Shown one piece after another: positions 45,235-46,916 of a stretch of 64,000 nucleotides of DNA. The notes beneath the pieces are model-generated. The model worked only from the letters and a program-made list of their open reading frames with translations. It ran no database searches and was not told where the DNA came from. Numbering within the stretch: the first letter of the stretch is position 1; each line of letters opens with the position of its first letter. A program made the position numbers and the translations under genes. Source of the DNA: Rhizobium sp. BK418 (GTDB lineage: Bacteria > Pseudomonadota > Alphaproteobacteria > Rhizobiales > Rhizobiaceae); the NCBI RefSeq assembly GCF_004341105.1, contig NZ_SLZK01000004.1, positions 186,001 through 250,000 of the forward strand, read 5' to 3'.

Positions 45235-46308
45235 TTAGAGCGAACCGTCGGCGGCGGCCTTCATGTAGGTCTCGGTGAAGCGCAGCTTCACATTGCCGGT
45301 ATCGCCAAGAACCTTGCCATCAGGCATTTCGATGCCGATGACATCGGCTGACGGCGCACCGTTGCCGAGCAGCCCTTTTTCGAAGAGAAAGTTGCGCACC
45401 AGATCCATAGTCTTCGGCAGGCTCGGCGAGGCGGTGAAGGCAACGGCATCTGCCGGCTTGTCGAAAAGCTTGGTGGCGGCGAGTTGAGCGTCAAAGCCGG
45501 CAAGATCAGTGCCGGATGCCGAACCCATGGCCTCGCGGGCTGCCTTGCCCTCGGCGGTTTCGGCGCGCAGCAGGGCGGCCGTCTCGTACCAGATGCCGGC
45601 AAGCGCCTTGCCGAAGTTCGGATTGTCTTTCAATACGCCGCTATTGGCGACCATCAGGTCGATGATTTCGCCCGGCACCTGCGAACTGTCAAAAACCTTC
45701 TTGGCCGTGGGGTCTTCGAGGATGGTGGAGACCAGCGGGTTCCAGGTGACGACGGCGGTAACGTCTGGTGTCTTGTAGGCCGCGACCATGTCGGCGTCGG
45801 AGGTGTTGACCACCTTAACGTCACGCTCCGTCAGCTTGATGCTTTCGAGCGCGCGGGCGAGCAGGTAGTGCGAGACGGAGAATTCGACGAGGTTGACGTT
45901 CTGGCCCTTGAGATCGGCAAGGGCAGTCTTGTCCTTCAGGATGACCGCATCATTGCCGTTCGAGAAGTCGCCGACGATCACCGCTGTTGTATCGACGCCG
46001 CCGGCGGCCGGGATCGACAGGCCATCCATGTTGGTCAGCGTCACGGCATCGAAGGCTCCCGCCGTGTACTGGTTCATCGACTCCACGTAGTCATTGAACT
46101 GTGTGACATCGATCTTGATGCCGTATTTGTCGGCCCATTTCTTGACGATGCCGTGATCTGCGGCATAGCCCCAGGGCATCCAGCCGACATATATGGACCA
46201 GGCGACCTTGAATTCGCTCTTCTGCTCGGCCGTGGCGATGGAGCTGAAACCCAGCGCCAGCGACGCCGAAAGGGCGGTGATGGAAAGGATCTTCGAAAAA
46301 GTCTGCAT
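45235..46308 (-). CDS. ABC transporter substrate-binding protein (predicted guanidine binder)
   Basis: A 357-residue periplasmic protein with a Sec signal (MQTFSKILSITALSASLALG, cleavage after ATA). The mature part begins EQKSEFKVAWSIYVGWMPWG, the hallmark start of the urea/guanidine-type binding proteins found with DUF1989 and urea carboxylase genes. ATG 46308 is decided by the Shine-Dalgarno AAGGGG at 46316-46321, which is also the strand masked in the expression platform. The frame is open to 46509, but that stretch is the riboswitch. First gene of the 36702-46308 operon. Confidence 0.93.
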   Translation of the reverse strand: MQTFSKILSITALSASLALGFSSIATAEQKSEFKVAWSIYVGWMPWGYAADHGIVKKWADKYGIKIDVTQFNDYVESMNQYTAGAFDAVTLTNMDGLSIPAAGGVDTTAVIVGDFSNGNDAVILKDKTALADLKGQNVNLVEFSVSHYLLARALESIKLTERDVKVVNTSDADMVAAYKTPDVTAVVTWNPLVSTILEDPTAKKVFDSSQVPGEIIDLMVANSGVLKDNPNFGKALAGIWYETAALLRAETAEGKAAREAMGSASGTDLAGFDAQLAATKLFDKPADAVAFTASPSLPKTMDLVRNFLFEKGLLGNGAPSADVIGIEMPDGKVLGDTGNVKLRFTETYMKAAADGSL

Positions 46309-46315
46309 TGAAATT

Positions 46316-46372
46316 CCCCTTTTGCTTTTCTTCAAAAGGGATCGGCAATGACCATCGTGCCGCCAATCCCTT
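46316..46372 (-). promoter_or_regulatory. riboswitch expression platform: two mutually exclusive hairpins over the ribosome site
   Basis: Read on the minus strand, AAGGGAT (46372-46366) plus GGC can pair with GCC and ATCCCTT (46342-46336). The alternative pairs CCCTTTTG (46340-46333) with CAAAAGGG (46324-46317), which covers the Shine-Dalgarno of the binding-protein gene. The hairpins share bases 46336-46340, so only one can form. The first frees the ribosome site and the second hides it, which suggests translational control. The pairing logic is inference from sequence complementarity. Confidence 0.7.
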
Positions 46373-46487
46373 GGCTTACGAGGTCTCCCGGGCTTTTGTC
46401 CCGCCGTGCACCCGACAGGATTTCTCCCCCGCCGGTGATGGCTCTCGGACCAGCCGCGCTTCAGAAAGCGCCGGAACCCTAGCCACC
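46373..46487 (-). ncRNA. guanidine-I (ykkC) riboswitch
   Basis: All the strongly conserved blocks of the ykkC class are present in order on the minus strand: CTAGGGTTCCGG (from 46482), CTGGTCCGAGAG, then ACGGCGGGACAAAAGCCCGG and GGGAGA (to 46384). Between the blocks are self-complementary arms such as GCGCTTTCTGAAGCGC, as expected for the P1a/P2 helices. It lies 64 bp upstream of the binding-protein start codon. Guanidine-I riboswitches turn genes on when guanidinium is bound, so it should control the whole operon down to AtzF. Confidence 0.97.
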
Positions 46488-46916
46488 AACTCTGTTCATA
46501 TCGAAGCAAGCGCTATGCCAGATCTTACATCCGGTTGATTTTTAATGATAAAGTTACGTTTCCTGCGGAGCGTTGCTTAAAAAGTGCATCCAGTTGCTCA
46601 ATGAATGTGCATCTGGAAATAGAATTGGACCTATGTCGAGCATTGGCCTGAATACCCGCGGACCCAGAAAGTCGCGCAGGTTGCCCATCTTCGGATAGTG
46701 CGGCGCTCCTATTGAAATGGCTGCGACAGTCTAGTTTAAATTGTTGAATCGTGGAATATGATCGAATAGTTGCATTTCCGAGGCGGTCGTCGGTGCGGCT
46801 TCGGATGGGATCAGCGATCATCGGGCCAGCTTTCGAATGACGACTGCCCAATGGTTTCGTCACCGACGCCAGTTGACTCGAACATCGGTCGATGAGGTAG
46901 CGCATGGAGGTTGCAA
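46488..46916. other. intergenic region upstream of the guanidine riboswitch
   Basis: A 429-bp stretch between the riboswitch (minus) and the peptidase gene (plus). It must contain both divergent promoters. It is visibly more AT-rich near 46500-46760. I could not choose reliable promoter boxes and see no gene that I can support. Confidence 0.5.

Follow-up and report, generated by a model that had tools for sequence, protein, structure and literature searches.

The window, that is the whole 64,000-nucleotide stretch of Rhizobium sp. BK418 DNA that was analysed, carries on its minus strand a Guanidine-I aptamer, genes for guanidine import and assimilation, and a second aptamer of the Guanidine-II class. 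The features of this operon are as follows.

46520-46506, minus strand: sigma-54-like box TGGCA-N6-TTGC, upstream of the aptamer
46493-46383, minus strand: Guanidine-I aptamer (RF00442, 88.8 bits, E 1.3e-14, cmscan)
46308-45235, minus strand: substrate-binding protein gene, first after the proposed switch (TIGR03427, 553.1 bits; ATG at 46308)
45222-44359, minus strand: ABC permease gene (longest ORF, start unsettled)
44563-43538, minus strand: ABC ATPase ORF, running through Guanidine-II (longest ORF, start unsettled)
43610-43561, minus strand: Guanidine-II (mini-ykkC) aptamer (RF01068, 40.0 bits, gathering score 32)
43541-42720, minus strand: UAAP1 gene, carboxyguanidine deiminase subunit type (TIGR03425, 299.6 bits)
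42709-42059, minus strand: UAAP2 gene, carboxyguanidine deiminase subunit type (TIGR03424, 335.1 bits)
42137-38517, minus strand: urea/guanidine carboxylase gene (TIGR02712, 1797.2 bits; longest ORF, start unsettled)
38513-36702, minus strand: allophanate hydrolase gene (NF006043, 803.3 bits)

The element at 46493-46383 belongs to a known riboswitch class, Guanidine-I. The RF00442 match is full length (model positions 1-107 of 107), scores 88.8 bits (gathering score 63), and includes strongly conserved consensus stretches of the family such as CUAGGGUUCCG and CUGGUCCGAGAGC in the cmscan alignment. It is the sole Guanidine-I match in the genome, and cmscan reported no other family at this position. 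The initial annotation had recognised a ykkC aptamer here, which was borne out, but the span it gave (46316-46487) cuts off the aptamer start at 46493. As in the class, the aptamer precedes guanidine import and assimilation genes, in this case of the importer, UAAP1, UAAP2, carboxylase and allophanate hydrolase families; UAAP1/2 and the carboxylase go by the names carboxyguanidine deiminase and guanidine carboxylase. By analogy with its class the aptamer probably binds guanidine, and the class together with the function of the genes suggests that guanidine would raise expression (the ON direction). The available text of a review describes this import and assimilation pathway and places the importer family of this operon type under guanidine-I (PMC12186494); the binding-protein gene of the window matches that family.

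The Guanidine-II match has the two-hairpin form of its class, scores above gathering and is the only one in the genome. Within the genus, Guanidine-I was found in 108 of 148 genomes and Guanidine-II in 121 of 148; in 105 of the 110 Guanidine-I loci of the genus, a Guanidine-II element lies on the same strand 2767-2810 bases further downstream. In the window it occupies the 3′ part of the predicted ATPase frame, the stop of which abuts or overlaps the UAAP1 start. The same layout is seen in 16 of the 18 sampled genus loci that have an ATPase match (L244-L261, the exceptions being L254 and L259; L262 and L263, without an ATPase match, stand outside this count). Operons of Raoultella and Klebsiella also combine Guanidine-I and Guanidine-II on one import and assimilation set; there, in the available text of PMC12186494, Guanidine-II precedes the carboxylase and allophanate hydrolase genes, whereas in the window it precedes the deiminase genes. 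A second ORF resembling a substrate-binding protein is found on the minus strand at 34411-33404, with a weak likeness to SsuA (30.1 bits, below the cut-off of 163.5).

The expression platform of the Guanidine-I aptamer is made up of the following elements.

46385-46350, minus strand: lower stem of hairpin A:B, GACC/GGUC plus CGU/ACG, formed in minimum-free-energy folds
46375-46362, minus strand: hairpin A:B, GCCAA-GGGA-UUGGC, formed in minimum-free-energy folds
46372-46362, minus strand: strand B, AAGGGAUUGGC, with either A or C as partner
46346-46336, minus strand: strand C, GCCGAUCCCUU, pairing with B and, in its 3′ part, also with D
46372-46362/46346-46336, minus strand: antisequestor B:C, AAGGGATTGGC/GCCGATCCCTT, 11 pairs including one G-U
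46341-46333/46324-46316, minus strand: sequestor hairpin C:D, UCCCUUUUG/CAAAAGGGG, formed in folds
46320-46315, minus strand: Shine-Dalgarno sequence AGGGGA, 6 nt upstream of the ATG at 46308

The three helices A:B, B:C and C:D are linked as a chain of mutually exclusive neighbours, strands B and C being shared. C:D, which includes the pairing of CCCUUUU with AAAAGGG, overlies the Shine-Dalgarno sequence of the binding-protein gene. Two competing stems had been proposed from the letters, AAGGGAT/ATCCCTT and CCCTTTTG/CAAAAGGG; both are present at their assigned positions with CCCTT common to the two, and the second does mask AGGGGA, 6 nt before the ATG. The first stem also exists, although it comprises the 11 pairs of B:C and not seven. 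The two-stem anatomy of the initial annotation stands, but its mechanism is incomplete as a third hairpin, A:B, shares strand B. The reported lack of a U-run likewise held: between 46250 and 46900 there are no terminator-like sites on either strand, and the interval from aptamer to gene contains no G+C-rich hairpin followed by a T run. What the interval does contain, as in translational riboswitches, is a set of alternative conserved stems, one of them over the ribosome site.

Minimum-free-energy folding, which had been suggested as a check, gives A:B together with C:D only, and B:C is absent; we refer to this as the OFF form. We dropped such folding as a test of the switch, as it returns the OFF form only and at full length the aptamer is partly misfolded. 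The folding energy of the region is lower than that of most shuffles, with z -2.20 for 46300-46382 (3 of 200 shuffles as good) and z -2.19 for 46300-46495 (6 of 200). Among 5000 dinucleotide shuffles of the window platform, one gave two overlapping stems of equal or greater stability whose second member covers the ribosome site, and two gave the three-helix chain.

In order to place the platform among its relatives, we assembled 237 loci from family, genus and order searches, leaving out below-cut-off matches (10 in one search and 30 in another), G570 (an order-level match at a contig end) and L170 (a shortened locus). The loci were classed by the pattern of their aptamer end motifs: GAG/CUC, as in the window, in 154; GUGCAG/CUGCAY in 43, with three more in a shifted register and one wobble form; GUGCGG/CCGCAC in 10; GUGUGG/CACCACGC in two; and no end motif in 24. 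The core hairpin is present in 130 of the 154 GAG/CUC loci. For the chain counts, the 25 of 237 loci without a binding-protein gene in sense were excluded. Among distinct core platforms with a binding-protein gene, 72 of 73 have the chain at no more than 1 in 300 shuffles, the exception being L212 (9 of 300), and so do six of nine other platforms of the GAG/CUC end type (not L146, L165 and L197). In the GUG type (GUGCAG/GUGCGG) the chain reached this level in 8 of 57 platforms and was not significant in 49, and it was significant in none of 17 platforms without end motifs. We therefore rejected the idea of a chain in every platform type after these last two counts; judged by shuffling, the predicted three-helix chain is a feature of one lineage and limited to the core type. 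For genes besides the binding protein the automatic starts are partly plainly wrong (L004), and the corresponding shuffle results carry little weight. One genome, G613, has three Guanidine-I copies (L186, L190 and L224) with core-like platforms and different genes downstream. L186, which by reading precedes an oligopeptide-type binding protein, keeps the chain (1 of 300 shuffles), as does L190 (0 of 300); in L224 the automatic search did not find it kept (37 of 300).

The pairing itself is strongly maintained. All 11 B:C pairs are kept in 125 of the 130 core loci and 10 of 11 in the other five, and the conserved pairing extends exactly over the Shine-Dalgarno sequence. On a tree of 133 loci we then compared the number of substitutions that keep pairing with that expected by simulation. 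For B:C the number was 28 of 39 against an expected 14.9 (matched in 0 of 20000 simulations), and for the upper stem of A:B it was 7 of 7 against 3.0 (likewise 0 of 20000). Lower A:B gave 18 of 24 (10.9 expected; p 0.002) and C:D 17 of 39 (10.4 expected; p 0.003), where the alignment is gapped and rests on sequence similarity. Many of the pair-keeping substitutions are G-U changes on one side of a pair that happened repeatedly at a few positions, so the events are possibly not independent. Double changes were also seen, from G-C to A-U in B:C (inferred twice) and from G-C to A-U in A:B (in L212). A stricter covariation G-test with a phylogenetic null gave nothing significant; its best pair (E 6.4) lies outside all proposed helices, and the doubly changed B:C pair comes 18th (E 38). 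For such a test the helices show too little variation.

Over the same 133 loci, positions 6-28 of the platform changed 0.96 times each on average, much like the aptamer core, where most bases show 0. The corresponding rates are 5.79 for the aptamer as a whole, 25.5 for the 40 upstream bases and, within the gene, 3.2, 2.0 and 17.4 for the first, second and third codon positions. Strand B is nearly invariant at 0.91, against 4.27 for the adjoining loop. Overlapping strands that are each bound to pair in two ways would fit this rarity of changes in the platform core.

We propose that a guanidine-I riboswitch controls translation of the importer through a chain of three mutually exclusive helices, a reading that we consider probable though by no means secure. 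Without guanidine, A would pair with B and C with D, so that the Shine-Dalgarno sequence is hidden (OFF). With guanidine, A:B would be weakened, B would hold C, and D would be released (ON). The analysis establishes the aptamer match, the helices with their overlaps and conservation, and the lack of a terminator-like site, whereas we infer the switch itself. The best candidate for weakening A:B would be a helix P0 that closes the ends of the aptamer and takes up the CUC beside A. The two strands of this candidate helix are as follows.

46492-46490, minus strand: GAG, candidate 5′ strand of P0 (about one change per position over 133 loci; 32 at the adjoining base)
46382-46380, minus strand: CUC, candidate 3′ strand of P0, overlapping the lower stem of A:B

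In GUG-type relatives the aptamer ends are complementary. All six P0 pairs are present in a fixed register in 50 of 58 distinct loci, and in the other eight the ends pair by eye with a shift or rearrangement; one of the six pairs is A-U in 41 loci and G-C in 10. The ends reach -7 kcal/mol or below in 43 of 44 distinct cases (median -12.2 kcal/mol), whereas controls gave -4.1 kcal/mol when the 3′ strand came from a different class and -5.8 kcal/mol when it was shuffled. Motif-less loci (-3.2 kcal/mol) and loci outside the order (-2.5 kcal/mol, with 3 of 24 at -7 or below) are weak by the same measure. In these cousin RNAs of the order P0 is thus well supported by modelled energy. L003, L149, L161, L166 and others from other genera of the order combine a strong P0 with a different platform. 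A possible anti-P3 stem, CCGGGAGA/UCUCCCGG (CCGGGAG with CUCCCGG), was spotted by eye in cousins; the window platform has no partner for such a pairing.

The window type behaves differently. Its ends have a median of -4.8 kcal/mol over 72 distinct cases, compared with -4.5 when swapped and -4.6 when shuffled, and the window's own ends also come to -4.8 kcal/mol; P0 in this type would have three pairs at most. A general P0 for the window type thus failed the energy test, and P0 in the window is a guess prompted by how seldom GAG and CUC change. The next two bases downstream of GAG are equally conserved, for which P0 offers no explanation. In the available text of PMC6031431 P0 is stated not to occur in guanidine-I.

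The conserved bases at the aptamer start may also be explained by a sigma-54-like promoter. A TGGCA-N5/6-TTGC box precedes 193 of the 237 loci, mostly 11-12 bases upstream of the aptamer, compared with 15 of 4740 shuffled upstream stretches. Of the 213 loci that carry end motifs 192 have it, as against 1 of the 24 that lack them. The usual sigma-54 spacing would presumably put the transcript start near 46494, at the first bases of the aptamer. Such a start site fails to account for the matching 3′ partners in the GUG type. A search of the phylum gave 27 loci, 24 of which belong to other orders; five of the 27 have the box and five a T-run within 155 bases. COG3665 genes, 59% of which are named urea carboxylase, are counted among predicted sigma-54 targets in the available text of PMC12316311.

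We then compared the folding energies of the OFF and ON forms. With the aptamer held, the window gives -70.7 kcal/mol for OFF and -64.5 kcal/mol for ON, a gap of 6.2 kcal/mol; with P0 held as well, the values are -61.1 and -61.0 kcal/mol and the gap is 0.1 kcal/mol. Across 75 core loci, occupying CUC lowers the median gap (ON minus OFF) from 3.0 to 1.1 kcal/mol; 53 of the 75 shift by more than 1 kcal/mol, and in some the shift is negative (lowest -2.3 kcal/mol). In equilibrium folding of 84 platforms, median access to the ribosome site rises from 0.02 to 0.10 with CUC taken, by more than 0.2 in 16 of the 84, and the site stays mostly hidden. When the modelled transcript stops short of D, B:C wins in all 42 platforms whether P0 is present or not, and the idea that P0 settles the outcome at this stage was dropped. 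The energy model, from which ligand energy is excluded, is that of a balanced system that is sensitive to CUC and does not amount to a full switch.

Another reading, rather unlikely in our view, is that the riboswitch is the same but A:B and P0 are uninvolved and the aptamer acts, for example, through folding kinetics or by stacking beside B:C; this corresponds to the two-stem model of the initial annotation. In its favour, shuffling yields B:C and C:D by themselves only once in 5000, B:C wins in all 42 platforms before D is transcribed, and P0 is without energy support in the window type. Against it, B mainly folds with A in the minimum-free-energy structures, 18 of 24 changes in the lower stem of A:B preserve pairing where 10.9 would be expected, and unless A:B is weakened the 75 core loci favour the OFF form by 3.0 kcal/mol (median).

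It is improbable that the platform acts on transcription, for example through Rho access or RNA decay when untranslated, with the hidden ribosome site as only one part of the mechanism. Untranslated leaders can invite Rho, which is a point in its favour. So is the mainly transcriptional control described for the guanidine-I class. The absence of any terminator-like site in 46250-46900 and a conserved pairing that lies exactly over the Shine-Dalgarno sequence in core loci argue against it, and in both respects the window differs from the guanidine-I class as described in the available text of PMC12186494, where control is usually transcriptional, by termination. That the ribosome-site hairpin acts independently of guanidine, either as a fixed brake or as a four-U-like heat sensor, as the dominance of OFF in equilibrium folding and the pairing of CCCUUUU with AAAAGGG might suggest, is very improbable, given that it lies directly behind a conserved guanidine-I aptamer, that B is nearly invariant (0.91 against 4.27 in the loop) and that a fixed brake would not need B:C, so the conservation of B:C (28 of 39 against 14.9 expected) counts against it.

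The proposed three-helix switch shares features with several known systems. Alternative pairing over a ribosome site is a general mode of translational riboswitches with a sequestor and an antisequestor, and the available text of a review holds expression platforms to be variable in sequence almost without exception (PMC7266159), whereas the window-type platform core shows only the 0.96 changes per position noted above. The helix at the aptamer ends of the order's cousin loci resembles P0 of the PRPP riboswitch (ykkC subtype 2b) as given in the available part of PMC6031431; the window aptamer differs in being Guanidine-I by covariance model, and the window-type P0 in having at most three pairs that energy does not support. 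A translational guanidine-I platform of this form, a guanidine-I P0 or its sigma-54 control was not found in the open-access papers searched, which is weak evidence of absence. The sensor class is known, and its conserved, apparently translational platform seems undescribed.

A broader reading, possible but doubtful, is that the Rhizobiales have a guanidine-I variant with a sigma-54 start, the 5′ end of the transcript closing the aptamer by a P0 that the class is said to lack, that in Rhizobium this closure captures strand A and drives the three-helix relay over the importer's ribosome site, and that Guanidine-II within the ATPase frame gates the deiminase genes. If this were true, one operon would read nitrogen limitation once and guanidine twice. 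Should the switch itself be real, it would be a test case for a guanidine aptamer that reports to the ribosome without a terminator and for whether P0 exists in guanidine-I, as well as for the way in which rhizobia might combine nitrogen status with guanidine as a nitrogen source.
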